DNA from: Candidatus Korarchaeota archaeon NZ13-K
GTDB taxonomy: Archaea > Korarchaeota > Korarchaeia > Korarchaeales > Korarchaeaceae
Assembly (NCBI GenBank): GCA_003344655.1
Contig: MAIU01000005.1
Span: 1-40,012, forward strand
Direction of reading: 5' to 3'
Length of the DNA: 40,012 nt
How positions within the stretch are numbered: position 1 is the first letter of the stretch; the number at the start of each line of letters is the position of its first letter. The notes beneath the pieces were generated by a model, which was given only the letters and a program-made list of their open reading frames with translations, ran no database searches and was not told the DNA's origin. Below, piece after piece: positions 4,371 to 21,089 of this stretch. The position numbers and the translations under genes were made by a program.

Positions 4371-4378
4371 TTTATTAG
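4371..4378 (+). promoter_or_regulatory. TATA box of tatC
   Basis: tttattag lies about 33 nt before ATG 4408, predicting a transcript with a leader of under 10 nt. It supports ATG 4408 over the longer open frame beginning at 4297, which overlaps the upstream gene. Confidence 0.5.
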
Positions 4379-4407
4379 CGCTGACGGATCAGCCGTGGGA
4401 AACCGAA

Positions 4408-5223: not shown

Positions 5224-5227
5224 GATC

Positions 5228-5542: not shown

Positions 5543-5570
5543 GAGGGTCTCCGCGATCACCCTCTATGAG

Positions 5571-5580
5571 GAATATAAAA
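5571..5580 (-). promoter_or_regulatory. TATA box of tatA
   Basis: Reads TTTTATATTC on the minus strand, about 34 nt before ATG 5542. This makes the GTG at 5560 unlikely as the start, since it would lie upstream of the predicted transcription start. Confidence 0.5.
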
Positions 5581-5643
5581 TGGTATCGCAGGGCTCTTGC
5601 GTGCAGGATTAAATGGAAGTGAGGCGAGGAGCTATAAAGGGTC

Positions 5644-6459
5644 TCAAAGCTGAGTTTCCTCGTATTTTAGCATCAATATTTGATACAACTCCCTGGGGAT
5701 GTCCCTCCCAATAACGCCCTCATCGAAGAAGTTCCAGCCGTTCCCGCACCCGTTGCACCTCATCATGCGGAACCCCTCCTTCGGCTCGGTCGACCCAACA
5801 TCGGAGGATCCGCAGAACGGGCACGTGCCCTCCGGGTACTCCCACTCCATACCGCAGATCTCACATTTAAGATGGACCCCGCTCTCATCTGAGAATGAGA
5901 GCCTCGTGTAGCTTCCGCAGATGGGACAGAAGCCCCTGTTCCACCCCTTGAGATCGATCTTTCCCTCTAGGATCTCCCTAATTTTAATGAAGATGGACTG
6001 CATCATCCAGACCCCTAGGGCGACCAATAGATCCTCGCTGACGCCTATTGTGAAGGAGACCCCCCTAGCGTAATTCAAATCTCCCTCGAAGGAAAGCCTG
6101 GCCAGGCTCTCCGGGTCGAAGAGGTCTTCCTCGAGGGACTCATTGATGGTATTCGCCTCCTCCCTGAGGTCCTCCCTCTGGGAGGCCAGAGCGGAGGATA
6201 GGATGGATGCGATCTCCTTCCATGAGGAGCGATCAATCTTCGGGAGATAGCAGATGTCGAAGAGGGAGGAGCCCTCCGATTCCGCCAGCTCGAGACATTG
6301 CAGCATACGCCCCTCCTCGTTGCGGAAATAAGCGGATATAATTTCGCCAATATGAGCCTGAGCTTCTAAAATATTTAGGAAAAATAGCACAGAGTTGGAA
6401 AGGGCTGGCTCCTTCTTGGCGATCATATGGGCGGCTTCCCTGATCCTCGCGAGATCCAT
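5644..6459 (-). CDS. fdhE: FdhE-like maturation factor with four CxxC motifs
   Basis: A 271-residue protein resembling FdhE, which in bacteria helps activate Tat-exported formate dehydrogenases. The N-terminal half is helical and poorly conserved. The C-terminal half carries four CxxC knuckles in order: CPICGS, CEICGM, CPFCGS and CNGCGN, the rubredoxin-like iron- or zinc-binding arrangement of the family. It stands alone between its own promoter (6487-6495) and tatA, so it is next to the Tat genes, but no formate dehydrogenase or other molybdopterin enzyme is adjacent. Client unknown: it could be an exported oxidoreductase elsewhere. Family assignment is good; role in this organism is inferred. 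Confidence 0.75.
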   Translation of the reverse strand: MDLARIREAAHMIAKKEPALSNSVLFFLNILEAQAHIGEIISAYFRNEEGRMLQCLELAESEGSSLFDICYLPKIDRSSWKEIASILSSALASQREDLREEANTINESLEEDLFDPESLARLSFEGDLNYARGVSFTIGVSEDLLVALGVWMMQSIFIKIREILEGKIDLKGWNRGFCPICGSYTRLSFSDESGVHLKCEICGMEWEYPEGTCPFCGSSDVGSTEPKEGFRMMRCNGCGNGWNFFDEGVIGRDIPRELYQILMLKYEETQL

Positions 6460-6486
6460 CGCTATCGTAGCTACACGCCCTGCTCA

Positions 6487-6495
6487 GTATAAAAC
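6487..6495 (-). promoter_or_regulatory. TATA box of the fdhE-like gene
   Basis: Reads GTTTTATAC on the minus strand, about 32 nt before ATG 6459, giving a leader of about 5 nt. Confidence 0.5.
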
Positions 6496-6513
6496 CATGC
6501 CGTTATGAATGTA

Positions 6514-6531
6514 ATTGATTTTAACATCAAT
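6514..6531. repeat. Short palindrome upstream of the fdhE-like gene
   Basis: Inverted arms ATTGAT (6514-6519) and ATCAAT (6526-6531) around a 6-bp spacer, with a third copy of ATTGAT at 6552-6557. They lie 20-60 bp upstream of the fdhE-like TATA box, a position suited to an activator or repressor. The surroundings are very AT-rich, so chance is a real alternative. Confidence 0.3.
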
Positions 6532-6692
6532 ATTTGGAAAATTTTATCATAATTGATGCAATCTAAGTGAAAATAATTACACAAATGAATATCTCAACGG
6601 AGATTTATTACATCACTTATCACCGAATGGTAGAAGCGGTGCTAAAATTGGCAGATTTGATGCCGATACTATGCCAAATTTCATAAAAATGT

Positions 6693-7745
6693 TCAGCATA
6701 TCCTGGGCACTATGACCCCCGAGGGGGGTTCGAGGATCCTCAGACCACCCACTAGGGTCCTCATGATCACAATGCCTCCGTAATCCCTATTCTCTCTCAC
6801 CTCCCCAATTATCGAGGCATCAGAGTAACCCAGATCCCTGATGAAGTCCAATATCTCCTCAGCGAGACTTCCATCAACTCCCAAGACGGCCCTGCCCTCG
6901 CAGGCCAGGAAGAAGGGATCTATCCCCAGCAGCTCGGTGAAGGCCCTGACCTCCTCCCTAACGGGGACCCTTTCCTCACTCACGACCAAGAGGAGGCCCG
7001 ACTTCTTGGCCCATTCATTGAGCGTTTGGGCCAAGCCGCCCCTCGTTGGGTCCTGAGCCGCGTGTATACTCTCCCCATACTTCTCGATGAGAGGCACCAT
7101 TAGCCTCGTCAGCGGCTCCACATCGCTCCTCAACTCTCCCTTGACGGAAAGCCCCTCCTGAGCCGCTAATATAGCGGCTCCGTGCTCCCCTATCGTGCCC
7201 GTGACTATTACCTTGTCCCCGGCCCTCACCCTGGAATCGACTATGGGTCTCTTGGCTATCCCCAAGCCGGCCGTGGTTATCACGTAGCGGTCAAGCTGAC
7301 CCCTCGGCATAACCTTGAAGTCCCCTCCGACGAGCTTCACTCCCTCGCTCCTCAACGTCTCGATGAGGCTGTTAGCTATCATCTCAACCTCGGAGATGGG
7401 AGATCCTTCCTCGACTATTATTGAATCCAGTATCACTTTCGGAACCCCTCCCATCATCAGCACGTCGTTTATCGTGCCGCAGGCCGCCAGCTTTCCCAGG
7501 TCCCCCCCTGGGAAGAAGGGAGGGTTGACCGTGTAGGAGTCTATCGAGAGTACCAAGTACTTCCCATCCGGCAGGGGGATGGCTGCGCCGTCATCCAGCT
7601 CCCCGAGGCCGACTCCCCCCTCCAGGGAAAGCTCCTCACCAGATAGCTTCGAAAGTATGAGCCTCTCCACAATCAGACTTGTCTCCTTCCCGCCAGATCC
7701 GTGGGACAGCTTCACCTTGGCTTCCTCTGAATCAAGCGATCTCAT
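6693..7745 (-). CDS. hypE: Hydrogenase cofactor maturation protein HypE
   Basis: Dehydrates the carbamoyl group received from HypF to the thiocyanate that supplies the CN ligands of the NiFe site. It belongs to the PurM/ThiL-type ATP-binding family: KLSHGSGGKE at the N-terminus, the GELDDGAAIPL motif, then the VGGDFKVMPRG and AQDPTRGG segments. The C-terminus ends in PRIC, and that terminal cysteine carries the carbamoyl and cyanide groups, so the protein is complete and should be active. Length (350 aa) is typical. ATG 7745 overlaps the hypC stop by 14 nt. It is the last gene of hypA-hypB-hypC-hypE; hypF and hypD are at 17.5-21.0 kb. Confidence 0.97.
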   Translation of the reverse strand: MRSLDSEEAKVKLSHGSGGKETSLIVERLILSKLSGEELSLEGGVGLGELDDGAAIPLPDGKYLVLSIDSYTVNPPFFPGGDLGKLAACGTINDVLMMGGVPKVILDSIIVEEGSPISEVEMIANSLIETLRSEGVKLVGGDFKVMPRGQLDRYVITTAGLGIAKRPIVDSRVRAGDKVIVTGTIGEHGAAILAAQEGLSVKGELRSDVEPLTRLMVPLIEKYGESIHAAQDPTRGGLAQTLNEWAKKSGLLLVVSEERVPVREEVRAFTELLGIDPFFLACEGRAVLGVDGSLAEEILDFIRDLGYSDASIIGEVRENRDYGGIVIMRTLVGGLRILEPPSGVIVPRIC

Positions 7746-7953
7746 AGCTCTCGATCTCCCTCAGGAGGGCCATTATCTCAGAGGCCTCCTCCTCATCTAT
7801 CTTGGCTATTATCATGCCGACGTGGACCAGCACGTAGTCTCCCGGTGAAACCTCCTCGAGGCTCGCGTCGACCTCCCTCACCACTCCCCCGAAGTCGACC
7901 AGAGCCCTTCCTTCCCTCACCTCCAAGACCCTTCCGGGTATGCCCAGGCACAA
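7732..7953 (-). CDS. hypC: Hydrogenase maturation chaperone HypC (TTG start)
   Basis: Small chaperone that works with HypD to build Fe(CN)2CO and deliver it to the hydrogenase large subunit. The family N-terminus MCLGIPG is present; Cys2 becomes N-terminal after Met removal and is essential. Because Cys2 must directly follow the start, the initiator has to be the TTG at 7951-7953. The protein is 73 residues, normal for HypC, with the conserved DYVLVHVGMIIAKIDEEEA segment. It begins 1 nt after the stop of the upstream hypB-like gene and overlaps hypE, so it sits mid-operon with tight coupling. Confidence 0.95.
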   Translation of the reverse strand: MCLGIPGRVLEVREGRALVDFGGVVREVDASLEEVSPGDYVLVHVGMIIAKIDEEEASEIMALLREIESYEIA

Positions 7954-7954
7954 G

Positions 7955-8737
7955 TCACCCCACCTCCATCAGGGCATCCAACAGGTTCCCCAACTGCATC
8001 CTGAAGCTCCCGGGTAGCTCTGTGACTTTCCCTTTCCTGATACTCTCCTCCACCGAAGGATCTATGGGCAGGCTAGCCAGCACCCTGAGACCGCATTCCC
8101 TGAGGAAATCCTCATCAATGCTCCCGAACGGTCTTATAAGCTCGCCGTGACACTCGATGTATGCCATGTTCTCGACGAGCCCGTGGATCCTGACACCCTC
8201 CTCCCTGAGCAGCTCGACCAGTCTCATGACGACGGACCTCGATAGTGAGGAGGGGGTTGTAACTACCAAAGCGCCTGCGTTGCTCAGCCCCCTGAGGACC
8301 CTCACCCCGAATATGGTCTCATCCCCCGTTCCGGGAGGCATGTCTATAACCAGATGGTCCAGCTCTCCCCAGTCCGTTATGGCGAGGAGGAATGATAGGA
8401 CCGACCTCTTGCTCTCCCCCTTCAGTGGAACAGGATTCCCCCCTATCATCAAGCCCAGCGACATGAGCTTAACTCCATTGACCACGGGTGGAACCAGACC
8501 ACCCTTACCTGCTCTTATCTCACCCTTGAACCCGAATATCCCGGGTACGGATGGTCCATGGACGTCTAGGTCCAATAAAGCTGTTTTATAACCTCTATCA
8601 GCCGAAACTATCGCTAGTGAGGCTGCGATCACGCTCTTACCCACGCCTCCTTTCCCAGAGGCAACTAAGGTAACCTTCCCCACTCCCTTGAGCTTTTTCT
8701 TGGCTCTCTCGAAGATCATGTCCTCCAAGGGACTCAC
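7955..8737 (-). CDS. hypB: Mrp/MinD-type ATPase, probable ATPase-form HypB (nickel insertion)
   Basis: A P-loop ATPase of the SIMIBI class with a deviant Walker A (ASGKGGVGKS), the LLDLDVHGPSVP switch and DMPPGTGDE segment of Mrp/NBP35 proteins. Only one cysteine is present where Fe-S carriers have a CxxC pair (ENMAYIECHG), so iron-sulfur scaffolding is doubtful. Position between hypA and hypC, and the lack of a GTPase-type HypB in the window, match the Mrp/MinD-type HypB shown in Thermococcus kodakarensis to partner HypA in nickel delivery. Start uncertain: GTG 8737 overlaps the hypA stop, while TTG 8728 lies 5 nt after GGGGTGA. A general Fe-S Mrp protein is the alternative. Confidence 0.8.
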   Translation of the reverse strand: MSPLEDMIFERAKKKLKGVGKVTLVASGKGGVGKSVIAASLAIVSADRGYKTALLDLDVHGPSVPGIFGFKGEIRAGKGGLVPPVVNGVKLMSLGLMIGGNPVPLKGESKRSVLSFLLAITDWGELDHLVIDMPPGTGDETIFGVRVLRGLSNAGALVVTTPSSLSRSVVMRLVELLREEGVRIHGLVENMAYIECHGELIRPFGSIDEDFLRECGLRVLASLPIDPSVEESIRKGKVTELPGSFRMQLGNLLDALMEVG

Positions 8738-9171
8738 CCCTCTAGGACCAACCTGCGGACGCTCAAACCCTTCCCGGATTCCACCTCGAAGTCCCTGCTA
8801 CCGCAATTGGGGCACCTCATCAGAGCCTGAGCTAGCTCTGGGATGAAGTGAATGGGGCTCTCCCTCTCGCCGTTCTCCCCCTCCCTTATCCCTAGATCCT
8901 CGGGAAGCGAGTCATGGACTTGCTTGAAGTTCCACCTATGACCGCAGGAGTTGCACCTGAAGGAAGCCTCTTCCTCCTTGAACACGAACTTTGATCCCTC
9001 CAAGGGGGTTCCTTTGGACAGCTCCTCCAGCGCGAACCTAAGTATGTCCAACTCCAGCTCCATCATCTCCCCGTATACTATCTCGACCTCCGAGACTCTC
9101 TTGGCACCCTCCCGCAGTATAACCGGGATCAGGCTATCGACTATGGCCTCCGCGAGCGACCATTCATGCAT
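8734..9171 (-). CDS. hypA: Hydrogenase nickel incorporation protein HypA
   Basis: Nickel metallochaperone that passes Ni to the NiFe site after Fe insertion. The N-terminus MHEWSLAEAI includes His2, the family nickel ligand. The zinc site is formed by two CxxC pairs, CNSCG and CPNCG, separated by about 50 residues; this long insertion and the 145-residue length resemble Thermococcus HypA rather than the shorter bacterial form (about 115 aa). It is first gene of the hypA-B-C-E operon with its own TATA box at 9203-9215, which lies in the end of the preceding protease gene. Overlap with hypB is 4 nt. Confidence 0.97.
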   Translation of the reverse strand: MHEWSLAEAIVDSLIPVILREGAKRVSEVEIVYGEMMELELDILRFALEELSKGTPLEGSKFVFKEEEASFRCNSCGHRWNFKQVHDSLPEDLGIREGENGERESPIHFIPELAQALMRCPNCGSRDFEVESGKGLSVRRLVLEG

Positions 9172-9202
9172 TACATTCCACCTGCCTCAAAAACTTCCAC
9201 AG

Positions 9203-9215
9203 CCTTAAAAATTTA
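9203..9215 (-). promoter_or_regulatory. Promoter of the hypA-B-C-E operon
   Basis: Minus-strand TAAATTTTTAAGG about 38 nt before hypA ATG 9171. It overlaps the stop codon of the upstream protease gene, so hyp transcription can be independent of the hydrogenase operon although the genes are almost contiguous. Confidence 0.5.
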
Positions 9216-9701
9216 GACATCACCGGGCGAGGCTTGCTGGTGAGTCTGAAGAAGCTCAATTAATTCAGCTAATATGAGCTCGGCGAGTATCCTCGCTGCG
9301 CTCCTGACTCCCTCGCTGACAGGGGAACCTATATCCGGCTTATTGATTGTTATACCATAGATCTTCACCACAGGAATCTTCTCATTTAACTCCTCTAACA
9401 GGTTTAATATCTCAGGAATGCCGTAATAATGGGGTGATGGTGCAACGGCCCGACGGGGGGAACCTGGCTCTATCATCACGATCTCACCTACTCTGTCACC
9501 TATTATAGAATCTATTAATATCACATAATCATAATCCATCATAAAATAATCTAACAGCTTAATGCCTGATTCGGAAGTTTTTATTACATCAATTGACTTT
9601 AGGTTTTTGGGCATTTTCGATAAGAGTTCGTCCGCTACTAAAAACCCTGCGCAATCATCCCCAAATAGCTCATTTCCCAGCGCCAAGATAAGGACTCTCA
9701 T
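9213..9701 (-). CDS. [NiFe] hydrogenase maturation endopeptidase (HycI/HyaD family)
   Basis: Protease that removes the C-terminal tail of the large subunit after nickel insertion, closing the active site. The family signature GNELFGDDCAG is at about residues 9-19, with the Asp that binds nickel; a second conserved acidic position is in ILIDSIIG, and a His lies in the SPHYYGIPEIL segment. ATG 9701 begins MRVLILALGN, as in homologues; a GTG at 9710 adds three residues. A TATA box at 9742-9750 in the 83-bp gap after mvhA gives it a separate promoter. Expected substrate: the adjacent MvhA, which has a 26-residue tail. Confidence 0.92.
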   Translation of the reverse strand: MRVLILALGNELFGDDCAGFLVADELLSKMPKNLKSIDVIKTSESGIKLLDYFMMDYDYVILIDSIIGDRVGEIVMIEPGSPRRAVAPSPHYYGIPEILNLLEELNEKIPVVKIYGITINKPDIGSPVSEGVRSAARILAELILAELIELLQTHQQASPGDV

Positions 9702-9741
9702 CCCAATCACTTGAGAGCAAAAATAAAATATGAATGATGAT

Positions 9742-9750
9742 CTATAAAAA
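9742..9750 (-). promoter_or_regulatory. TATA box of the hydrogenase maturation protease
   Basis: Minus-strand TTTTTATAG about 45 nt before ATG 9701 (36 nt before GTG 9710). It separates protease expression from the upstream hydrogenase structural genes. Confidence 0.5.
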
Positions 9751-9784
9751 TTGTTTTAGGCCTATATGGCAGGCATTTTGTTGA

Positions 9785-11245
9785 TCAATCTCTTCTAATC
9801 TCTTTTATCAGGTTGTCATCACTATCGTATATCCTAACTATCAGCGGCATTGAGCCTGGCAGCGAGTGAGTCGCGCAGGCGTGGCACGGATCGTAAGCCC
9901 TGAAGGCCATCTCCACCATGTTCAGAATTCCGTCATCTATTTTTCCATTCTTTATAAGAGATCTGGCGGCTTTATCTACTGATAGGACCATTCTAGCTGA
10001 ATTGTTCTGCGTTGCAACTATTAGGTTCGCTCTTTTTATTATTCCCCTCTCATCTGTCTCGTAGTGATGAATCAATGTTCCTCTGGGTGCCTCGACGACG
10101 CCTATTCCGACGTCAGGCCTCTCTTTCGGGAGATTCCTCACATCCTTGCTCCTTATCTCCGGATTCTCAATAAGTTCCATCATTCTCTCAGCAGCGTACA
10201 CCATTTCAATGACCCTAGCCCAGTGGAATGCGAGTGTGCTATGAATGGGCTTCCCACCCATAACTTGGTAGAACTCCTTGTAGAGTTCGTTAGCCATGGG
10301 AGTCGCCATTCCATTGGAGGCATTGAGCCTAGCAAGCGGGGCTACGCTGTATATACCACTCTCCTTCCCATCGACGAATCCCTTCCATCCCACGCCCTTA
10401 AGGTAGGTGAACCTCACATAGGTCCAAGGTTCCACATGTTCCGCTATATGATCTAAGTAATTCCTCACATCAAACTTAGCGAACTCTCTTCCCTCCGGAT
10501 CGACCACTCTTATCTTCCCATCGTAGAAGTTGACGTTATTGTTATCATCAACTAGTCCCATGTAATACGTTTTATGCGTATATGCATCCGATTTTATCAA
10601 CTCTACATATTGGTCGTTCGAAAGCACTATATCTTTGAGGGCTTTATATGCGAATTTAGCAAACTCTATCCCCTCCTTCGAGGTATCGAAGCATATCTTC
10701 CAATCCTCATCCGAGAGCGGTTTGGCGACACCTCCTGGGAGACCTAGCACCGGATGCGTTATCTTCCCACCTATCAGCTGCTCTAGATACCTCAACTTCT
10801 TCCTAGTTATTATGACGTTTTTGACTACATCAGCCCCTAGCTTCTTGATGATCCCCACGAGATTCCTCTCTTCCTTGGCTGCTGTTGGTCCCACGATGAA
10901 GTCTGGTCCTCCGAGGACGAAGAAATGTAAAGCATGATCCTCTAGCATGAAGACATTATAAGCGAACTCTCTTATCATCTTGGCAGCAAGCGGTGGTTCA
11001 ACCTTGAATAAGTCATCTAGTGCCTTGGTCGCAGCCATGTGATGAGCCCATGGGCATACACCACATATTCTGGAGGTTATTTGGGGCGCATCCTCAGCGG
11101 TCCTACCGACTAAGAACTTCTCAAATCCTCTGAGCTCCGGGACTTGCAAGATTGCTTTCTGAACATTACCATTTTCATCAAGCTTTATCACAATTTTTCC
11201 ATGTCCCTCCAACCTAGTTATGGGATCTATCACAACTTCCCTCAT
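9785..11245 (-). CDS. mvhA: [NiFe] hydrogenase large subunit, Mvh type
   Basis: Catalytic subunit that holds the NiFe centre and splits or makes H2. The N-terminal ligand motif RICGVCPWAHH supplies Cys61 and Cys64; the C-terminal DPCHACATH supplies Cys454 and Cys457 and ends at His460, the expected cleavage point, leaving a 26-residue tail (SLPGSMPLIV onwards). All four nickel-ligand cysteines are present and no selenocysteine codon is seen. ATG 11245 follows GAGAGGTGA by 5 nt; the TGA of that site is the mvhG stop. Length (486 aa), the ITRLEGHGKIVI opening and the DG partner genes place it in the F420-non-reducing, cytoplasmic group 3 type. It is last structural gene of the qmo/hdr-mvh operon. 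Confidence 0.95.
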   Translation of the reverse strand: MREVVIDPITRLEGHGKIVIKLDENGNVQKAILQVPELRGFEKFLVGRTAEDAPQITSRICGVCPWAHHMAATKALDDLFKVEPPLAAKMIREFAYNVFMLEDHALHFFVLGGPDFIVGPTAAKEERNLVGIIKKLGADVVKNVIITRKKLRYLEQLIGGKITHPVLGLPGGVAKPLSDEDWKICFDTSKEGIEFAKFAYKALKDIVLSNDQYVELIKSDAYTHKTYYMGLVDDNNNVNFYDGKIRVVDPEGREFAKFDVRNYLDHIAEHVEPWTYVRFTYLKGVGWKGFVDGKESGIYSVAPLARLNASNGMATPMANELYKEFYQVMGGKPIHSTLAFHWARVIEMVYAAERMMELIENPEIRSKDVRNLPKERPDVGIGVVEAPRGTLIHHYETDERGIIKRANLIVATQNNSARMVLSVDKAARSLIKNGKIDDGILNMVEMAFRAYDPCHACATHSLPGSMPLIVRIYDSDDNLIKEIRRD

Positions 11246-11250
11246 GCCAC

Positions 11251-12222
11251 TCACCTCTCCTCCTTCTTCCTATAGATTGTTCCCTTCCCTAAGCAGTACT
11301 TCGCGAACCATCCCAACGGATCCACACCCAACTCCTCCACGAGCTTCCTGAACGTATTTTCATCATCAATGTTGATTATTGAGGAGAAGAATGAGAGCGC
11401 CTTTGCTCCTTGATAGCTCACACCATCTACTGGTCCGAAGCAGCCAGTGCAAGGCATGTTCCCCTTTATGCAGAGCGCCTTGCAGCCTCCCCTAGTGACT
11501 GGTCCCATGCACAATACTCCTTGGGTCAAGTAGCATTTGTTCGGGTCCAATACGATCTGATGCGGTCTCTTTATAGTATCCAAAGATATCTTCTCAGGTT
11601 TTGTCTCATTGAGCGGACACTCATAGCAGAGGGCCCTGTCGCTACCGAAGACGTGACCCTTGGGTGGTAGCTTACCGGAGAGTATTGAGGAGATGGCCTC
11701 CCAAGTGATCTCCGGGGTTGGAGGGCATCCGGGGATATAATAGTCAACCTCTACGACTTCATCCAATGGTTTCAAATAATCCAAGAATGCGGGCAATTCA
11801 AGTTCCACCCCATCAAACGAGGCCCTCACCTCTGGTCTTCTGCCCTCGGGATTGTTAACTGTAGGAGCTTCCTCGTAAGCATATTTGAAGATGGACTCCT
11901 TCGTGTAAGCATTCGCTAGAGCAGGAATTCCCCCCATATGAGCGCAGCTACCATATGCAACGACCAATTTAGACTTCCTTCTGAGGAGCTTGACCATCTC
12001 CTCATGCTCACTCATCCTTATCCCGCCGTTTATTATGGCGACATCTATGGAGCCATCAGGCATCCTCTCTACATCCTCTCTCTTGAAATCCATGGCTACG
12101 GGCCAAAGTACTATATCCGCAGCTTCAACTAAGTCAAATAGCTTGTCAGCGAGATCCACTTGAGCTTCTTCACAGCCTCCGCAGCTTGCGCACCAGTAAA
12201 AGGCTACCTTGGCCTTGGGCAT
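11251..12222 (-). CDS. mvhG: [NiFe] hydrogenase small subunit, MvhG type
   Basis: Electron-transfer small subunit with three predicted Fe-S clusters linking MvhA to MvhD. The proximal-cluster motif is WCASCGGCEEA near the N-terminus, with conserved cysteines in AYGSCAHMGG and YYIPGCPP. The C-terminal half has further groups (LCYECPL, KCYLTQGVLCMGPVTRGGCKALC, MPCTGCFGP) for the other clusters. No Tat signal is present, so the enzyme is cytoplasmic. ATG 12222 (after TTG 12225, which is not needed) is 6 nt after GGAGGTGA and overlaps the mvhD TGA by one base. At 323 residues it is near the usual MvhG size. Confidence 0.94.
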   Translation of the reverse strand: MPKAKVAFYWCASCGGCEEAQVDLADKLFDLVEAADIVLWPVAMDFKREDVERMPDGSIDVAIINGGIRMSEHEEMVKLLRRKSKLVVAYGSCAHMGGIPALANAYTKESIFKYAYEEAPTVNNPEGRRPEVRASFDGVELELPAFLDYLKPLDEVVEVDYYIPGCPPTPEITWEAISSILSGKLPPKGHVFGSDRALCYECPLNETKPEKISLDTIKRPHQIVLDPNKCYLTQGVLCMGPVTRGGCKALCIKGNMPCTGCFGPVDGVSYQGAKALSFFSSIINIDDENTFRKLVEELGVDPLGWFAKYCLGKGTIYRKKEER

Positions 12223-12653
12223 CAACCATCACCTCCACCAGATCTCATCACGAGAGGTCCGAGCTTCCTGATCTGCTCCACCATTTCGGTCACAACGTCC
12301 ACCCACTTTTTAGCCTCAGCGGCCGAGATCCACTCCCTCCTAAATCTTCCCCTCTCTATACCCATCTGTTCAAGCATCTTCTCAAGTAAGACCGTTCTCC
12401 TCATCGTCTTCATGTTTCCGTTGACATAGTGACAGTCGCCGGGATGGCAGCCTGCAACTAGTACGCCATCAGCCCCGTTCCTGAATGCCTCTATTACGAA
12501 TTGAGGATCACTTCTCCCGGAGCACATCACCCTTATCACCCTGACGTTGGGTGGGTACTTGAACCTACTCGTCCCAGCTAGATTGATCGCCTGATAGGTG
12601 CACCAGTGACATGCAATAACGACTATCTTTGGCTCAAAATTCTCATCACCCAT
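12222..12653 (-). CDS. mvhD: MvhD-type electron-transfer subunit ([2Fe-2S])
   Basis: Links the hydrogenase to HdrA in Mvh-Hdr complexes, where MvhD contacts the C-terminal ferredoxin domain of HdrA. The 143-residue protein has the MvhD cysteines: ACHWCTY, VMCSGRSD and AGCHPGDCHY. ATG 12653 lies 5 nt after GGAGGTGA, whose TGA is the hdrA stop, so the start is well supported. In QmoB of sulfate reducers the same domain is fused to the C-terminus of an HdrA-like chain; here it is a separate gene immediately after the long HdrA. It therefore marks the long HdrA as the hydrogenase contact. Confidence 0.93.
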   Translation of the reverse strand: MGDENFEPKIVVIACHWCTYQAINLAGTSRFKYPPNVRVIRVMCSGRSDPQFVIEAFRNGADGVLVAGCHPGDCHYVNGNMKTMRRTVLLEKMLEQMGIERGRFRREWISAAEAKKWVDVVTEMVEQIRKLGPLVMRSGGGDG

Positions 12654-12658
12654 CCGGA

Positions 12659-14644
12659 TCACCTCCCAAATATAGCTAAAATTTGCGGTATTATCTGCTT
12701 ATCCTTATAACCGTACTGCTGTATCGCTGCTGAGGGGCATGCAGCCACACACGTTCCACAACCCTCGCAAAGCATCGGATCTATCTTCGAATATTTGGTA
12801 CCATCATCCCTCTTTTGGATCGATATCGCATTGAACGGACATAAAGAGACGCATATACCGCAACCAGAACACTTGTTCTCGTCAACCTCCGCTATCAGAG
12901 GCTCTACCTCTATCTGATCCTTGACTAAGAGTATGGAGGCTTTTGCCGCAGCAGCACTACCAGTTATCACGCTCTCAGGCACGCTCTTCGGGCCCGTAGC
13001 TGTTCCAGCCAAGTATATTCCCCCTGTGAGAGACTCCACTGGATTTAGCTTCAGATGCAACTCCTTAAGGAATCCATCTCCTCCGCATCCTACCTTGAAG
13101 AGGCTCCTCACAGAATCTATCTCCTTGATGGGAGTCATGCCTGTGACTAAGACCACGAGATCCGCCGGTATGGATATTCTCTCCTGCAGCGTGGTTTCGA
13201 AGACCTCCACGTATAACTCATCATTCTCGATGGATACCTTGGGAGCCTCCTCATCAAATCTAACGAACTTGATGGAATTTTCGATGGCATCCCAATATAA
13301 CTTCTCATCCTTTCCATAGACCCTCACGTCCTTGTGTACGTAGAAAATGCTCGCATCAGGATATTTGCTCTTTATGTGTAACATCTCGGAAAGAGCGGCC
13401 ATGCAGCAGGTTCTAGAGCAGTACTGATTGGCATGAGGTGTTGTACTGAGCGAACCCACGCATGATATGAAAACGATCCTCTTGGGTTCACTTCCATTCA
13501 CTAAAAGCTTTCCCCTAGTCGGCCCATCATCGCTTAAGTATCTCTTAAGCTGATTCAGTGTTATCACTCTCGGGGAGAGGGAATATCCATACTCCCCAAT
13601 GGCTGGCTCATAGTCGTCGTGGCCCACCGCCATGATTATAGCTCCCACGTTGAGGGAGACCTCCTCATCTTTCTCTTTCAGATTTATAGCGTTTACGGGG
13701 CAAACTTCAACGCATTTACCGCAGAAGGTACAGGAACTTGGATCTATGACGTACCTCGCAGGGTACGCTCCTAGGAAGGGGAGATATATCGCTTTTCTCT
13801 CGTTGATCCCGTACTCATATTCGTTGGGGACTGAGACCGGACAAACCTCAACGCACTTACCGCATAGATTGCAGTTCTCGTTCACATACCTAGGTCTCTT
13901 CTTAACCGTGATCTTGAAGCTTCCTATCGAGCCATCCACTCCCACCACTTCAGAATTTGTGTGGACAATAATCCTTGGATTCCCATTAATTCTGTCCAGG
14001 AGACTCTTCACCATCTCTCTGCCGGATACTCTCCTTCCTTCCCAGTTCAACAAACCCATCGAAGCCACATGACCACCAAGAGTGGGTTTCTTTTCCACCA
14101 AGTGGACTTCAAATCCTCTGTTGGCTAAATCAAGGGCCGCTGTGATCCCAGCCACTCCGCCTCCCACCACCAATGCTCTGTGGACGACCTCCCCCCTTAT
14201 CTTTTCTAGTGGCTCTAAATTCCTAACTCTGGCTACGGACATCCTTATCATATCCTTTGCTTTTTCGGTGGCAGCCTTAGGATTATCGTAATGTACCCAA
14301 GAGCTTCCCTCACGTATCGCTATGAGATCTATCAAGAATGGATTCAAGCCGGCCTCCGATACCGCAGCTCTGAAGGTGGGTTCATGCATCTCAGGCCCAC
14401 AAGCAGCTATAACCACTCTATTGAGCTTATACTGCTCAATATCCTCCTTTATTAAGTTCTGTCCTGGTGCAGAACACATAAATACATACTCCTTGGCAAC
14501 CACAACGTTGGGCAATGTTTTAGCATATTCAACAAGCTCCTTAACGTCTATCACTCCCGCTATGTTGAGGCCACAGTGGCAAACATAGACGCCTATCCTT
14601 ATCTCCTCGGACTCAGACCCAGAAACTCCGACCCTCTCACTCAT
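12659..14644 (-). CDS. hdrA: HdrA-type FAD iron-sulfur protein, long form (QmoB/HdrA-like)
   Basis: A 661-residue HdrA homologue. Order: N-terminal HdrA domain (IGVYVCHCGLNIAG, VFMCSAPGQ, AACGPEMHEPTF); FAD-binding fold (VVGGGVAGITAALDLA); inserted ferredoxin with CNLCGKCVEVCP and CTFCGKCVEVCP; the FISCVGS plus YCSRTCC cysteines of the cluster close to the flavin; and a C-terminal ferredoxin with CSGCGICVSLCP and CEGCGTCVAACP. Unlike canonical HdrA it lacks the TLDCxxCILTP stretch after the FAD site, which is instead found in the neighbouring short homologue. In Mvh-Hdr complexes this flavin is the bifurcation site. With the next gene, mvhD, it corresponds to an unfused QmoB. Confidence 0.92.
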   Translation of the reverse strand: MSERVGVSGSESEEIRIGVYVCHCGLNIAGVIDVKELVEYAKTLPNVVVAKEYVFMCSAPGQNLIKEDIEQYKLNRVVIAACGPEMHEPTFRAAVSEAGLNPFLIDLIAIREGSSWVHYDNPKAATEKAKDMIRMSVARVRNLEPLEKIRGEVVHRALVVGGGVAGITAALDLANRGFEVHLVEKKPTLGGHVASMGLLNWEGRRVSGREMVKSLLDRINGNPRIIVHTNSEVVGVDGSIGSFKITVKKRPRYVNENCNLCGKCVEVCPVSVPNEYEYGINERKAIYLPFLGAYPARYVIDPSSCTFCGKCVEVCPVNAINLKEKDEEVSLNVGAIIMAVGHDDYEPAIGEYGYSLSPRVITLNQLKRYLSDDGPTRGKLLVNGSEPKRIVFISCVGSLSTTPHANQYCSRTCCMAALSEMLHIKSKYPDASIFYVHKDVRVYGKDEKLYWDAIENSIKFVRFDEEAPKVSIENDELYVEVFETTLQERISIPADLVVLVTGMTPIKEIDSVRSLFKVGCGGDGFLKELHLKLNPVESLTGGIYLAGTATGPKSVPESVITGSAAAAKASILLVKDQIEVEPLIAEVDENKCSGCGICVSLCPFNAISIQKRDDGTKYSKIDPMLCEGCGTCVAACPSAAIQQYGYKDKQIIPQILAIFGR

Positions 14645-14659
14645 ATGAATCCCCCCAAC

Positions 14660-15940
14660 TTATTGACTAATCGCTAAAAGGGATGCCTTCATTGCAGCAG
14701 CGCTGGCTTGAACTACGGAGTCAGGTATATCCTTAGGACCGCTTAACATCCCGATCACGAATATCCCCGGTAAGGGTGAGCTTACTGGCTCCATAATGGG
14801 ATCCTTAAGCTGAGCGAAGGAGTCTTCAGCGGTTGGTACGAAGGAGTCGGGCAACCTGGGCTTAACTCCCACCGCCAAAACTACCATATCGAACTCCTCC
14901 TTAACGAATTTGCTCTTTTGGGTGTCTTCGTAATATACTATTAGATTCTTAGTATTTGGATCTTCCAAGATCTTGGCTGGTTTACTCCTAATGAACCTCA
15001 CGCCAAATTCTTCTCTCGCTCTGTCATAGAACTCCTGGTATCCCTTTCCAAAGGCCCTGAGGTCCATGTAAAAGACGGTCACATCAACGTCATGCATGTG
15101 TTCCTTCGTCAGTATGGCTTCCTTCACTGAAGCCATGCAACAGACCGCAGAACAGTTGGGATTGATCCTAGCGTCCCTTGAACACACGCACTGGATGAAA
15201 GCTATCTTCCTCGGATGCTTCTTGTCAGATCTCCTTAAGATCTCGCCACCCGTTGGTCCAGTGGCTGAAACTATCCTCTCGTACTCTAAATTCGTGTAAA
15301 CGTTTGGGTAGACTCCATAGCCGTATTGTTCCCTCAGGAAGTCAGCATCCATTATTAAATCATATCCGGTCGCAAATATCACCGCCGCAACATTAAGTTC
15401 GATATCTTCCGGTTTTTGGTTATAATCTATAGCTTTAGCTGGGCAGAACTTCTCGCAATTTTTACAAATTCCTTTCTGGAAGAAAAGGCAGTGTTCTGCA
15501 TCTATTGTAGCCTTTAAAGGAACTGACTGAGGAAATGGAATGTAGATGGCCTTTCTCTCGCTCATCCCCTCGTTATATTCATCCGGGACTTTGGATGGGC
15601 AATATTTGAAGCAAACCATACAGCCAGTACACTTATCGATGTCAACGTATCTTGGTTTCTTCCTAATTCTTAATGTGAAGTTCCCAGCCTCCCCCTTTAC
15701 ATCTAGAAGGTCGCAATAGGTTAGAAGCTCTATATTCTTGTTTCTAGCAACCTCTACCATCCTAGGTGTCAGTATGCACATGCTGCAGTCCAATGTGGGG
15801 AAGGTCTTATCGAGTTGAGCCATTCTACCGCCGATTGAGGGTGTCCTCTCTATGAGGTAAACCTTAATACCTTGGTTCGCGAGATCCAAGGCCGCTTGAA
15901 TACCGGCAATACCGCCACCAACAACGGCAACAGGCTTCAT
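14660..15940 (-). CDS. qmoA: HdrA-type FAD iron-sulfur protein, short form (QmoA-like)
   Basis: A 426-residue second HdrA homologue with only the core: FAD site VVGGGIAGIQAALDLA, the canonical FPTLDCSMCILTPRM stretch, an inserted ferredoxin (CTGCMVCFKYCP and C-x7-CKNCEKFCP), and the FIQCVC plus NCSAVCC cysteines. N-terminal HdrA domain and C-terminal ferredoxin are absent. Size and place directly after the qmoC-like gene resemble QmoA, but the retained cysteine stretch and ferredoxin insert are closer to true HdrA. ATG 15940 overlaps the qmoC-like stop as ATGA after a purine-rich GGGAGGAG site. Likely pairs with the long HdrA, as QmoA does with QmoB. Naming as qmoA is by architecture, not by alignment. 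Confidence 0.85.
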   Translation of the reverse strand: MKPVAVVGGGIAGIQAALDLANQGIKVYLIERTPSIGGRMAQLDKTFPTLDCSMCILTPRMVEVARNKNIELLTYCDLLDVKGEAGNFTLRIRKKPRYVDIDKCTGCMVCFKYCPSKVPDEYNEGMSERKAIYIPFPQSVPLKATIDAEHCLFFQKGICKNCEKFCPAKAIDYNQKPEDIELNVAAVIFATGYDLIMDADFLREQYGYGVYPNVYTNLEYERIVSATGPTGGEILRRSDKKHPRKIAFIQCVCSRDARINPNCSAVCCMASVKEAILTKEHMHDVDVTVFYMDLRAFGKGYQEFYDRAREEFGVRFIRSKPAKILEDPNTKNLIVYYEDTQKSKFVKEEFDMVVLAVGVKPRLPDSFVPTAEDSFAQLKDPIMEPVSSPLPGIFVIGMLSGPKDIPDSVVQASAAAMKASLLAISQ

Positions 15941-17079
15941 ACTCCTCCCTCCCAAACTTTCGCAAACCAGAGGGCGAGTGGCCTATAGATGAGATGAGCC
16001 AGCTTGGAGAATGGTGCTGAGACTATTAAGATGAAAACGGCCACTAGGTGAACTCCATAGGATGTGTAGGCCATCATAGGAATGTTTGCATATATCGCTG
16101 TCGTTATTAGGAAGCCCGATAATCCTATCACAAAGATCAGTGAGAGAAGCCACCAATCAGGCAGGTAAGTCCGCTCAGCGTAAACGGCATCCTTCCTGCT
16201 CCTGTGAATTATGTAATATATGCTACCATACATGAGCAGTAACCCCCCGGCAATCCCTAGAATTCTAGCAGTATTTGTGACAATGAAGGGCTCGGGAGCT
16301 CCCGGGTAGAGTGTTAACCACATGAAGTGGACACCAGTGGCCGCAAATGTCAAAACAAATCCCCAGAATATCGATAGATGAGCTAAATATCTGTTATTCA
16401 AACCCTTTTGGCATCTAAGTCTCAACTGGAATAATCCCTCTTTGAGGACGACGTCTATCAACTCCCTGATCCAAGCAGACAGCCTAGCGCTCTTTCCGTA
16501 CCCCATTGTTGCTCTTGCATACCTATACATGGTAAGGATGTTAATTAAGCTCACCAAAATCACGTAGGCTAGGAGCCATAACCCTATCTCATGAATCACT
16601 TCCGAACTGATTAGTGTATTTATGTCCACTCTAGTGAGATCTAGCCTGCTCAGACCATCGGACCATAGGAAGATCCCGAGGATTCCCACTAGAATCATTA
16701 CCACAGAAACTATTGATGCGGAGAACCTTTCATAAAATATTTTCCCTATTTTGAAGGGGCTGTAGTGAATCACTTGGTATTTCCTAGCGGAGTCCATTAT
16801 ATATCCAGGCGTAGCCTCTTTAGGACATGTCGCGTTACAATCACCGCAGAAGTAGCAAGTCCAAGGTGTAGGATCTCCCAGCACACTGTGCCTCATCCCA
16901 AGCTGGATCTTCTTTATCAACTTTCTTACTCTCACAGTCTGGATCTCGGAGTTAGGGCATATCGCTGTGCATGTCCCGCACTGGTAGCATTTCTTTATCC
17001 CATCTCCCCCAAGTCTCAGGAATTCCTTGGAAAGATCCTCCGTCACTACAAGTGGTCTTTCCATAGTGAGCGGGGCCAT
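15937..17079 (-). CDS. qmoC: QmoC-like membrane subunit: HdrC ferredoxin domain fused to cytochrome b
   Basis: A 380-residue fusion. Residues 31-41 and 75-85 hold two [4Fe-4S] motifs (CYQCGTCTAICP and CYFCGDCNATCP) as in HdrC. From about residue 118 six hydrophobic spans follow, with candidate haem histidines in VIHEIGLW, AHLSIFWG, TGVHFMW and GVHLVAV, matching the HdrE/NarI-like cytochrome b of QmoC. This should pass electrons between cytoplasmic flavoproteins and a quinone or similar lipid carrier. It opens the hydrogenase operon behind a TATA box at 17114-17127; ATG 17079 or ATG 17064 may be used. No HdrB is present, as in Qmo and unlike soluble HdrABC. Confidence 0.88.
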   Translation of the reverse strand: MAPLTMERPLVVTEDLSKEFLRLGGDGIKKCYQCGTCTAICPNSEIQTVRVRKLIKKIQLGMRHSVLGDPTPWTCYFCGDCNATCPKEATPGYIMDSARKYQVIHYSPFKIGKIFYERFSASIVSVVMILVGILGIFLWSDGLSRLDLTRVDINTLISSEVIHEIGLWLLAYVILVSLINILTMYRYARATMGYGKSARLSAWIRELIDVVLKEGLFQLRLRCQKGLNNRYLAHLSIFWGFVLTFAATGVHFMWLTLYPGAPEPFIVTNTARILGIAGGLLLMYGSIYYIIHRSRKDAVYAERTYLPDWWLLSLIFVIGLSGFLITTAIYANIPMMAYTSYGVHLVAVFILIVSAPFSKLAHLIYRPLALWFAKVWEGGV

Positions 17080-17454: not shown

Positions 17455-17493
17455 ATGCGGTGGCCTGTTATCGGCAGAATATTGTTAACAAGA

Positions 17494-17500
17494 TTTATTA
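17494..17500 (+). promoter_or_regulatory. Probable TATA box of hypF-hypD
   Basis: tttatta about 42 nt before ATG 17539. A competing element at 17424-17435 would give a leaderless message from ATG 17455, adding 28 basic residues not known in HypF, so I favour the downstream pair. Confidence 0.4.
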
Positions 17501-17538
17501 GAGCTTATCACTATAGGATTAGGCGGAGTGCTGGAGCG

Positions 17539-19866
17539 ATGAGGGCGCCGTTTGAGGAGAGAATTACAGCTCTGGTAGTCAAAATATCCGGCATAGTTCA
17601 GGGAGTTGGCTTCAGGCCCTTCATCCATAGACTGGCCACCAGATACAGCTTATCGGGATATGTCAAGAACTTGGGAGGGAGCGAGGTAGAGATAAGGATC
17701 GAGGGGAGTTTGGGATCTATTTCATCGTTCTTAAAATCCCTGTTGGATGAGAGACCACCTCCGGCTAGGATAGAGGAGATGGTAATAAGGGCTGATGAGC
17801 CAAACGGGACCTCCGGTTTCTCGATACTCAAGAGCGATGCTAGGTCGGAGCTCTACTCCATGATACCGCCGGACTTCAGCATATGCGAGCACTGCCTCAG
17901 GGAGGTTTACGACCCCTCGGACAGGCACTACAGGTATGCTTTCAACAGCTGCGCCTGGTGCGGCCCCAGGTTCTCGATGATGAGGGGGCTTCCCTACGAT
18001 AGGGAGAACACCTCGATGTCGGAGTTCCCCCTCTGCAGGAGTTGCGAAGCTGAGTACGGAGATCCCGGAAATTTAAGGAGGTTCCACGCTCAGGGAATCT
18101 CCTGCCCCGAGTGCGGCCCCTCCCTCTGGCTCGAGGATAACAAGGGGAATAGGTTGAGCGTCGAGGATCCCATAGGGAGGGCGGCTAGACTCATAGATGA
18201 GGGTAAGATAGTTGCGATAAAGGGGATAGGAGGTTATCACATCGCCTGCCTGGCAACGGACGATCTGATCGTCAGGAGGCTCAGGGAAAGGAAGAAGAGG
18301 CCTCACAAGCCCTTCGCCCTCATGGCTCTCGACCTTGAGACCGTTGAGAGGCATGCTGTTCTTGATGGGCCATCAAAGGATCTCCTGACGAGCCCGGAGA
18401 GACCAATAGTCCTCCTGCCTAAGAGGGACGGTTCGGGAATCTCTGAGCTGGTGGCGCCGGGTCTGCACCTGATAGGGATCATGCTCCCCTACACAGCTCT
18501 TCATCACATGCTGCTGAGGGAGACGGCCGATGGGGTGCTCATAATGACGAGCGGCAACGAGCACAACAGGCCCATGTGCACCGATGTAGAGAGCGCTAGG
18601 AGATCGCTGTCCGGTGTGGTGGACTACTTCCTGCATCACGATCGTGAGATAGTCAACAGGGTGGACGACAGCGTGCTCAGGTTCACCGGCAGGAGGGTTA
18701 CAATGCTGAGGAGGTCAAGGGGCTATGCCCCAATGTGGATAAAGCTGCCGGCCCGCCTGAAGAGACCCGTAATAGCATTCGGCGCCGAGCTGCAGAACGC
18801 GGGGGCCGTGGCCTTCGATGACAAGGTTGTCCTGACTCAATTCATAGGGGACACCGATGAGATGGAGAACCTGGAGTTCCTTGACAGGATGCTGAGGTTC
18901 TTCATGAACGCTTACTCCATAGATCCATCGAGGGCCGCGCTCGTGGTGGACAAGCATAGAGCGTATTCATCCAGGAGGCTGGCCGAGATCTGGGCTGAGA
19001 GACACGGCGCCAGCCTGATAGAGGTTCAGCACCACCATGCGCACGTGCTCTCTGTCATGGCTGAGGAGAGGCTGGGCCTCGAAACTAGGGCCATTGGTGT
19101 GGCGGTGGATGGTCTGGGGTATGGGGAGGATGGGACTCTCTGGGGAGGGGAGGTTCTCCTCTCCAAGTTCTCCGGCTTCGAGAGGATCGGCCACCTGAGG
19201 CCCCAGCCCATGCCCGGGGGTGACAGGGCATCTAGGTACCCCGTCAGGATGCTCATAGGGATCCTGAGCACCTTCATGAGCGATGAGGAGATTCTGGAGG
19301 TGCTGAGGAAGAATGATCTCCTCAAAGGACTTCCTATGGGGGAGGAGGAGGCAAGGGTATCTTTGATTCAGGCTAGGAGCAGGGGGGTGCCTCTAATATC
19401 CAGCACCGGCAGGTTCATGGACGCGGTGAGCTCTCTGCTGGGCATCTGCTTCGAGAGGACCTATGAGGGGGAGCCAGCCATGAGGCTCGAGGCCGCGGCC
19501 TCAAGGGGGAGGCTGGTGGATGTGGATCCCCCCAGGGTGGTTGGTGGCGTCGTAGACACAAGCGAGTTCCTGGAGAGGCTGATGAGCGTTGAAGCGAGGA
19601 GGGAGGACCTGGCTTTCACCTCGATATACCTGCTAGGGTACTCCCTTGGAAGGTTGGCCTCGATGGGTCTGAAGAGTAGCGATTTGAACTCTGTTCTGGT
19701 TTCAGGAGGCGCAGCCGTCAACTCTATCCTGATCTCTGGCATTGAGGATGCCCTCAGGGAGGTGGGCGCTCAGGTGAGGCTGAACTCCTCCGTGCCACCG
19801 GGGGACGGCGGTATAGCGCTGGGACAGGTGGCCTTCGTCTTGGGGAGGGATAGCGATGTTGACTGA
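17539..19866 (+). CDS. hypF: Carbamoyltransferase HypF
   Basis: Makes carbamoyl-adenylate from carbamoyl phosphate and transfers the carbamoyl group to the C-terminal cysteine of HypE, the first step to the CN ligands. Domains in order: acylphosphatase (ISGIVQGVGFRPFIHRLA), four CxxC zinc knuckles (CEHC, CAWC, CRSC, CPEC), YrdC-like domain (KGIGGYHIACLATDD) and Kae1-like domain with QHHHAHVLSV and GDGGIALGQ. From ATG 17539 it has 775 residues, normal for HypF; the frame stays open to ATG 17455, but the extra segment is outside the family pattern. It overlaps hypD by 11 nt, so the two are co-translated. Confidence 0.96.
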   Translation: MRAPFEERITALVVKISGIVQGVGFRPFIHRLATRYSLSGYVKNLGGSEVEIRIEGSLGSISSFLKSLLDERPPPARIEEMVIRADEPNGTSGFSILKSDARSELYSMIPPDFSICEHCLREVYDPSDRHYRYAFNSCAWCGPRFSMMRGLPYDRENTSMSEFPLCRSCEAEYGDPGNLRRFHAQGISCPECGPSLWLEDNKGNRLSVEDPIGRAARLIDEGKIVAIKGIGGYHIACLATDDLIVRRLRERKKRPHKPFALMALDLETVERHAVLDGPSKDLLTSPERPIVLLPKRDGSGISELVAPGLHLIGIMLPYTALHHMLLRETADGVLIMTSGNEHNRPMCTDVESARRSLSGVVDYFLHHDREIVNRVDDSVLRFTGRRVTMLRRSRGYAPMWIKLPARLKRPVIAFGAELQNAGAVAFDDKVVLTQFIGDTDEMENLEFLDRMLRFFMNAYSIDPSRAALVVDKHRAYSSRRLAEIWAERHGASLIEVQHHHAHVLSVMAEERLGLETRAIGVAVDGLGYGEDGTLWGGEVLLSKFSGFERIGHLRPQPMPGGDRASRYPVRMLIGILSTFMSDEEILEVLRKNDLLKGLPMGEEEARVSLIQARSRGVPLISSTGRFMDAVSSLLGICFERTYEGEPAMRLEAAASRGRLVDVDPPRVVGGVVDTSEFLERLMSVEARREDLAFTSIYLLGYSLGRLASMGLKSSDLNSVLVSGGAAVNSILISGIEDALREVGAQVRLNSSVPPGDGGIALGQVAFVLGRDSDVD

Positions 19867-20989
19867 ATTGAGGGATAAGGAAATATCATTAAAAATCGCT
19901 AGAAAGATAAAAGAAATAAGCAAAAATCTGGGAAATGTGAAAATAATGAACTTCTGCGGGACTCACGAGTGGGTGATAACGCACTACGGGCTGAGGTACC
20001 TCATGCCCGAGAGCGTGGAGCTGATAGCTGGCCCCGGATGCCCCGTCTGCATAACTCCCGCTCGCTACGTCGACGCCGTGGTGAAGCTGGCGATGGAAGG
20101 GGTGAGAGTGATGACGTTCGGGGACAGCTACAGGCTGATGGGCTCCAGGAAGAGCGGGCTCCCCAGGAGCCTAGAGGAGGCCAGGGAGAGGGGAGCGAAT
20201 GTTGAGATAGTTTACAGCATGCTTGATGCGATAAGGATGGCCAAGGATGGCAAGGAATCCGCTTTCTTCGCGGTAGGCTTCGAGACAACGGCACCCGCCG
20301 TCCTAGCTCCCCTGCGCTCGGGTGAGGTCCCCAGCAACCTTAGCCTCGTGGTGGCCCACAGGCTCACGCCTCCCATAATGAGGTACGTCTTGGAAAGGTT
20401 CCCCGGTTCCCCCATAAAGGGAGTCATAGCCCCGGGTCACGTCTCCACGGTGGTGGGCTCCTCGGCCTGGGAGTTCGTCGCCACCGAGTATCGCATACCC
20501 GTGGTCGTATCCGGTTTCGAGCCAGTGGACGTGCTCCTCTCCATCCTTGAGATAGTGAGGCAGATAGCCAGGGGTGAGGCCAGGCTCTTCAACGAGTACT
20601 CGAGGGCCGTCAGCAAGGAAGGGAACAGAAGAGCCATTGAGGTGATGAGATCAACAACCGAAGTGGTGGATGCTGATTGGAGGGGAATAGGGATCGTTCC
20701 GGACAGCGGGCTGGTCCTAAAGGATGAGTTCTCTGAATTCGACGCCCTAAGGAGGTATGATGTGGGAGAAAGTTCCTTAAACTTCGATGACTCCCTCCCG
20801 GGTTGCAGGTGCGCCGAGATCACCTTGGGAATGATCAGACCCACGGAGTGCCCACTCTTCATGAGGGCCTGCACTCCGGAGAGACCCTACGGCCCTTGCA
20901 TGGTCTCCAGCGAGGGAACCTGTCTGATATGGGCCAAGTATAGGGGTAGCGAGTTCCTAAGAGGACTGGCCGAGGATCTTTCCGTCTGA
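19856..20989 (+). CDS. hypD: Hydrogenase maturation protein HypD
   Basis: Iron-sulfur scaffold on which, with HypC, Fe(CN)2CO is assembled. The family motifs are all present: NFCGTHEWVITHYGLR (about residues 32-47), GPGCPVCITP, GFETTAPA, and the C-terminal [4Fe-4S] ligand set in CRCAEITLG, ECPLF, ACTPE, GPCMVS and GTCLIW. At 377 residues it is full length. Start ATG 19856 lies within the end of hypF. It closes the plus-strand maturation unit and is followed after 100 bp by the nickel transporter operon, which has its own promoter and operator. Confidence 0.97.
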   Translation: MLTELRDKEISLKIARKIKEISKNLGNVKIMNFCGTHEWVITHYGLRYLMPESVELIAGPGCPVCITPARYVDAVVKLAMEGVRVMTFGDSYRLMGSRKSGLPRSLEEARERGANVEIVYSMLDAIRMAKDGKESAFFAVGFETTAPAVLAPLRSGEVPSNLSLVVAHRLTPPIMRYVLERFPGSPIKGVIAPGHVSTVVGSSAWEFVATEYRIPVVVSGFEPVDVLLSILEIVRQIARGEARLFNEYSRAVSKEGNRRAIEVMRSTTEVVDADWRGIGIVPDSGLVLKDEFSEFDALRRYDVGESSLNFDDSLPGCRCAEITLGMIRPTECPLFMRACTPERPYGPCMVSSEGTCLIWAKYRGSEFLRGLAEDLSV

Positions 20990-21021
20990 GGTCAGCTCTC
21001 CGGGGTCCCGCTGACTCATGT

Positions 21022-21070
21022 TATTACCAATTTCTATCTTTGGTAATATTTTTAAGCAGGCGGTATTACC
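21022..21070. promoter_or_regulatory. Candidate NikR operator overlapping the cbiM/nikM TATA box
   Basis: Three copies of one half-site: TATTACCAA (21022-21030), TTGGTAATA (21040-21048) and TATTACC (21064-21070). The second and third form GGTAATA-N15-TATTACC, 22 bp start to start, the geometry of known NikR operators (GTATGA-N16-TCATAC in E. coli). A TATA box at 21047-21055 lies inside it, so bound repressor would block initiation. nikR is encoded 2 kb away. Operator identity is inference. Confidence 0.6.
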
Positions 21071-21089
21071 GTACAACCGGGTAGGTATT

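Follow-up and report, generated by a model that had tools for sequence, protein, structure and literature searches.

We identified, in a 40,012-nucleotide stretch of the genome of Candidatus Korarchaeota archaeon NZ13-K (contig MAIU01000005.1, positions 1 to 40,012; hereafter, the window), a cluster of six genes predicted from its sequence to encode a membrane-anchored, flavin-based electron-bifurcating hydrogenase (probability about 0.6). The genome (G000 in the sets described below) is a draft assembly of 1,374,210 bases in 148 contigs, estimated as 96% complete. The cluster occupies positions 9785-17079 of the minus strand and comprises, in 5′ to 3′ order, the genes listed here, with flavin residues numbered according to HdrA of Methanothermococcus thermolithotrophicus (structure 5odc), the alignment reference.

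15937..17079, minus strand: QmoC-like protein (380 amino acids, aa), an HdrC domain with two 4Fe-4S motifs joined to a cytochrome b membrane domain (NCBIfam qmoC, E 8.6e-62)
14660..15955, minus strand: short HdrA-like (QmoA-like, HdrA6-type) flavoprotein (431 aa as listed); equivalents of K409 and E356 kept
12659..14644, minus strand: full-length HdrA (661 aa) whose Fe-S domains are N-terminal, inserted and C-terminal; Ser in place of K409 and Lys in place of E356
12222..12662, minus strand: MvhD (FlpD), a separate gene, whose product is the 2Fe-2S link between hydrogenase and HdrA (Pfam FlpD, 1.3e-53)
11251..12225, minus strand: MvhG, hydrogenase small subunit (NCBIfam VhuG, 5.7e-58; Pfam Oxidored_q6)
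9785..11254, minus strand: MvhA, [NiFe] hydrogenase large subunit of the group 3c type (NCBIfam VhuA, 5.4e-118; ligand motifs)

The contiguity of the six open reading frames (ORFs) and the identities of their products had been proposed in an earlier note on this DNA; both were borne out by the ORF coordinates, which are unchanged, and by family searches. Since the successive intergenic gaps are -19, +15, -4, -4 and -4 bp, the block fits a single operon. For both the short HdrA-like gene and mvhG the listed start is a TTG codon; the true starts are probably ATG codons, located five codons in and nearby, respectively. A scan with promoter and terminator models of the bacterial type, which are unsuited to archaea, found nothing above chance. 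A family search of the genome also confirmed that the cluster itself has no gene for HdrB, the protein with CCG domains, as the note had claimed; the CCG matches of this genome lie on other contigs.

The hydrogenase subunits have the features of a group 3c [NiFe] hydrogenase (Mvh): MvhA keeps both ligand motifs (RICGVC and DPCHACATH) and is accompanied by MvhG and MvhD. Its score against the narrow VhuA equivalog (394 bits) is below the cut-off of 800. DPCHACATH is followed by a tail of 26 aa, and the HycI protease for this tail is encoded next door.

The earlier note had called for a search for the exact six-gene order, which we performed in 29 genomes of the phylum of the window and in 59 genomes of the class (Archaeoglobi) of an Archaeoglobaceae locus, L052. 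A full-length QmoC-type protein is encoded in 7 of the 29, and at least five of these 29 (G000, G010, G011, G013 and G022) carry the intact hydrogenase-linked order; in another (G007) the set is split over contigs. QmoC-type matches are common among the 59 Archaeoglobi genomes, at least six of which (G061, G116 and G118-G121; loci L052, L202-L205 and L216) have the same order. This latter figure is a minimum, derived from the loci opened, nearly all the others of which contain canonical qmoABC genes with MvhD fused to QmoB. The order thus recurs in at least 11 genomes from two archaeal phyla and is not due to chance, and the retention of overlapping genes as a block supports the predicted function. 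A scan for the patterns of the short HdrA returned locus L052, with the same order, and otherwise mostly ordinary HdrA loci, because these patterns are common to the whole HdrA family.

At the Archaeoglobi locus L216 (positions 2697-15516, genome G116), the genes hypF, hypD and hypE adjoin the cluster. The flavoproteins of this genome group with those of Korarchaea of the same genus as the window (support 87-88), hinting at transfer of the cluster between the phyla.

Comparison of the two HdrA subunits provided an indication as to where bifurcation may occur. Four cysteines of the inserted ferredoxin domain (386, 399, 403 and 404) are kept in all of the short and long cluster subunits examined. 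Residues K409 and E356, described as stabilizing the bifurcating flavin adenine dinucleotide (FAD) (PMC12054007), are both present in the short subunit in 11/11 genomes. In the long subunit, K409 is lost in 10/11 genomes (replaced by Ser, Leu, Ile or Asn), with additional loss of E356 in five of those ten. The residues expected of a bifurcating HdrA are therefore found in the short subunit and not in the long one. For comparison, K409 is kept in type I QmoA (9/9) and QmoB (8/9, the ninth having Arg). This pattern suggests one bifurcating flavin per heterodimer, carried by the short subunit. The simplest reading of the long HdrA would be that of a wire and docking platform, the latter because it alone has N- and C-terminal Fe-S domains.

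In the mechanism that we propose, MvhA would oxidize H2, MvhG and then MvhD would relay the electrons, and the long HdrA would accept them at its C-terminal ferredoxin domain and hand them on to the FAD of the short subunit, where the pair would be split. A lipid-soluble carrier would receive the high-potential electron, relayed first by the HdrC domain and then by the b haem(s) of the QmoC-like protein, and the low-potential electron would reduce ferredoxin. Cytochrome b and the lipid carrier would thus replace the HdrB and heterodisulfide of the MvhADG-HdrABC complex. Operation in the opposite direction, with ferredoxin and the reduced carrier yielding H2, may also be possible. If true, H2 oxidation would be coupled within one enzyme to both a membrane carrier and ferredoxin; such bifurcation has so far been inferred from genes and expression alone. 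The residue asymmetry, for its part, predicts which HdrA subunit bifurcates.

Membrane subunit and the Qmo affiliation

In the QmoC-like protein, conservation extends to the Cys motifs of both 4Fe-4S clusters, and His234 and His362 are invariant in the alignment. A single-chain AlphaFold model (predicted local distance difference test, pLDDT, 80; predicted template modelling score, pTM, 0.80) shows a soluble domain and long helices, as expected. Its best PDB matches were with HdrC, the NarI cytochrome b and EtfD (probability 1.00, E 0.009-0.13); as none reaches E 0.001, they are considered supportive only.

In its architecture the protein is similar to QmoC, as the earlier note had proposed, but it does not belong to the canonical QmoC clade: it scores 209.7 bits against NCBIfam qmoC, under the cut-off of 300 bits, and falls outside the type I QmoC clade in the trees. 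When two TusA-linked Korarchaeal sequences are left out, the QmoC-like proteins form one clade (support 100/100); with this DsrE/TusA-linked pair included, the tree splits, and a single clade appears in 5% of bootstrap trees but is not rejected (approximately unbiased test, p-AU 0.117). The HdrA tree (68 rows, quick method, with type I QmoA and QmoB sampled from Archaeoglobi only) places the 11 short subunits in one group (support 100) and the 11 long ones in another (support 99), each spanning both phyla, as expected for co-inherited partners. Both groups lie away from the type I QmoA and QmoB clades. Furthermore, MvhD is here the product of a separate gene, whereas in type I Qmo it constitutes the C-terminal domain of QmoB. 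Canonical type I Qmo was rejected in view of the trees, the separate MvhD and the missed qmoC cut-off. Judged from these sequence comparisons, the label Qmo holds by architecture and not by clade; in its strict sense, which the note had made dependent on the tree placement of the cytochrome-fusion protein, it fails for type I, and the functional analogy stands. The proteins may belong to type II Qmo.

The TusA-linked sequences originate from two Korarchaeal clusters (L044, positions 3805-9738, in G007, and L045, positions 3147-8871, in G019), which encode a DsrE-like protein, TusA, MvhD, a short HdrA, a long HdrA, a 93-aa protein and a QmoC-like protein. Neither contains hydrogenase genes, and they possibly determine a sulfur-carrier-linked Qmo-like complex. 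In G007 the long HdrA has lost most of the cysteines of the inserted ferredoxin domain.

Lipid carrier and alternative readings

Several observations weigh against a bifurcating, membrane-anchored hydrogenase: (i) the residue asymmetry is not absolute, since G116 keeps K409 and E356 in both HdrA subunits, (ii) five of the six hydrogenase-linked versions from Archaeoglobi have a residue other than His at the position of His344, (iii) the known menaquinone markers were not detected, as there is no match to MqnA/MqnD (PF02621) in this genome and neither MqnC nor MenD scores over the cut-off in 24 genomes of the family, this one included, although a draft that is 96% complete cannot prove absence, (iv) the genome encodes, besides the cluster MvhA, just one other NiFe large subunit (contig C33), and (v) we know of no biochemistry for any member of the Mvh-Qmo-Hdr kind. 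With regard to the second point, His344 is kept in Korarchaea and in type I Qmo, and its replacement in Archaeoglobi indicates that the haem content of the subunit may vary between versions.

The quinone is the weakest step of the model, because the searches detected markers of neither known menaquinone pathway. The picture is alike in the complete, single-contig genome G010 of the same genus, whose one PF02621 match, below the cut-off, is a transporter protein. Weak PF02621 matches in relatives were rejected as MqnA/MqnD, being the binding protein of an ABC transporter beside a UbiD-UbiA pair, and the MenD matches, far below the cut-off, resemble related thiamine diphosphate (ThDP) enzymes. 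A search for UbiA was uninformative, several being encoded in every genome. In relatives (L136, positions 6184-10698, and L137, positions 4331-9018), the UbiD-UbiA pair adjoins the ABC transporter, and these genes might serve the salvage of an aromatic quinone precursor; in the present genome, where only one UbiD was detected, no such pair was found. The oxidoreduction between H2 and a lipid carrier, as put forward in the note, is supported by the sequence in its hydrogenase and membrane arms and doubtful as to the carrier. We can suggest only tentatively that single-flavin bifurcation in an unlike HdrA pair sends its high-potential electron to the membrane of an organism without known menaquinone, using a scavenged or undescribed lipid carrier.

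These findings bear differently on four other explanations. That a canonical Qmo complex serving adenosine 5′-phosphosulfate (APS) reductase lies next to hydrogenase genes by chance is very improbable: the HdrC-cytochrome b fusion and two HdrA-like proteins do resemble QmoABC, but the genes overlap those of the hydrogenase in an order shared by at least 11 genomes, all three subunits fall outside the type I clades, and the window has no aprAB. An oxidoreductase without bifurcation, with both electrons wired through the HdrA pair to cytochrome b and no role for ferredoxin, seems unlikely. Electron flow from H2 to quinone is downhill without bifurcation, and the loss of K409 from 10/11 long subunits would suit a wire; an all-wire enzyme would not, however, need the K409 and E356 that every short subunit retains, nor the cysteines of the inserted ferredoxin domain kept in both subunits.

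Two further readings concern the partners and the direction of the bifurcating complex. The genome's CCG-domain matches are located on contigs C3, C11, C12 and C45, the last of which carries no hydrogenase but does encode (L048, positions 2667-6718) HdrA, an MvhD bearing a ferredoxin domain, HdrC and HdrB. An hdrB gene elsewhere, forming a standard HdrABC with the cluster subunits, had been named in the note as evidence against the model; such a gene exists, but the set to which it belongs has an HdrA, MvhD and HdrC of its own. As only two NiFe large subunits are encoded, MvhAG could be shared between the QmoC-like complex and the C45 set, driving disulfide reduction, so that the cluster would be one of two outlets. 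The MvhA tree is compatible with this, the QmoC-linked MvhA being not exclusive: an Aigarchaeota MvhA adjoining HdrABC genes falls inside the group. On the other hand, the C45 set possesses its own MvhD, and many Korarchaeal relatives are without this MvhA. According to the relevant passages of PMC10667645, a partial HdrABC/MvhD set occurs in all Korarchaeia genera, most of them without MvhA, so it can work in its absence. We regard sharing as rather doubtful. It is possible, though we do not favour it, that the complex runs mainly in reverse in a fermenting archaeon, confurcating electrons from reduced ferredoxin and the reduced lipid carrier into H2. The aldehyde:ferredoxin oxidoreductase encoded in the window could supply reduced ferredoxin, fermentation is the lifestyle generally ascribed to Korarchaea (PMC10667645), and no terminal acceptor for the lipid carrier was identified here; against this, the uptake direction has been proposed for Ca. 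Methanoglobus (PMC10945360). A bifurcating, H2-oxidizing hydrogenase anchored in the membrane remains the reading that we prefer. The note's union of a hydrogenase arm with a membrane arm, probably with flavin-based bifurcation, is supported at the sequence level, with correction needed of the label, the novelty and the carrier.

Maturation genes and other neighbours

The cluster is flanked on both sides by genes for hydrogenase maturation:

9213..9710, minus strand: HycI-type hydrogenase maturation protease, 74 bp after MvhA (family searches; linked in all relatives opened)
8734..9171, minus strand: HypA nickel chaperone (family searches)
7955..8737, minus strand: Mrp/NUBPL-type P-loop ATPase, probably an Fe-S cluster carrier (family searches; kept in same-genus clusters)
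6693..7745, minus strand: HypE (NCBIfam hypE, 2e-104, over cut-off)
17455..19866, plus strand: HypF, upstream of and divergent from the operon (sequence and orthologues in relatives)
19856..20989, plus strand: HypD, upstream and divergent (sequence and orthologues in relatives)

Directly after hypD (21018-23508, plus strand) are located a CbiM-type cobalt/nickel uptake gene, a gene with a weak PDGLE-domain match and one for an ABC ATPase, which probably constitute a nickel transporter serving the hydrogenase. The window also encodes a RACo-type 2Fe-2S ASKHA protein (27898-29553, minus strand), from a family of reactivators of corrinoid proteins, and the above-mentioned aldehyde:ferredoxin oxidoreductase (36648-38414, minus strand), an enzyme that commonly provides fermenting archaea with reduced ferredoxin.

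Comparison with known systems

The MvhADG-HdrABC complex of methanogens (5odc) shares with the present cluster MvhA, MvhG and MvhD, as well as an HdrA that matches in its domains and Fe-S cysteines. The cluster differs from it in having no HdrB with CCG domains, an HdrC fused to cytochrome b, and two unlike HdrA subunits in place of one. Type I QmoABC of sulfate reducers likewise contains an HdrC-cytochrome b fusion and two HdrA-like flavoproteins; unlike this complex, the cluster has subunits from separate clades, an MvhD unfused to QmoB and a hydrogenase, and lacks aprAB neighbours. Type II Qmo, with proteins from V. moutnovskia and A. degensii as examples, could be compared by description only; it is reported to be nearer to HdrA, and the available text of PMC10504309 mentions no hydrogenase association. 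The Mvh:Hdl system of Archaeoglobus fulgidus also combines an Mvh hydrogenase with Hdr-like proteins, and bifurcation has been proposed for it, but the description is of a soluble MvhABC/HdlABC complex with a disulfide as its presumed substrate (PMC3949148).

The closest counterpart is the Mvh-Qmo-Hdr system of Ca. Methanoglobus, methanogenic Archaeoglobi of hot springs (PMC10945360), with which the cluster shares MvhAGD, two HdrA subunits and a QmoC-HdrC fusion together, without HdrB. The six Archaeoglobi loci identified above are of this type and have the identical gene order. The same gene set, expressed at a high level, and the hypothesis that H2 oxidation is coupled to reduction of menaquinone and ferredoxin were reported for Ca. 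Methanoglobus hypatiae (PMC10945360); that paper also attributes the set to Ca. Methanoglobus nevadensis, citing Buessecker 2023. The arrangement and the hypothesis are thus already published for Archaeoglobi, and the novelty considered in the earlier note does not stand. An HdrABC/MvhD complex associated with MvhA has been recorded in a few Korarchaeia lineages (PMC10667645), in passages that are silent on Qmo, and the Korarchaeal version seems not to be described in the literature found. It differs from the Archaeoglobi versions in its phylum and in its QmoC, which is only about 21-30% identical, and from the Ca. Methanoglobus system in its linked hyp genes and in the lack of a detected menaquinone pathway marker in this genome. 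What is added here is the missing menaquinone markers, which raise the question of which lipid carrier is used in Korarchaea, the asymmetric flavin pair, and the extension of a known gene set to another archaeal phylum, which shows that the set is not peculiar to methanogenic Archaeoglobi.

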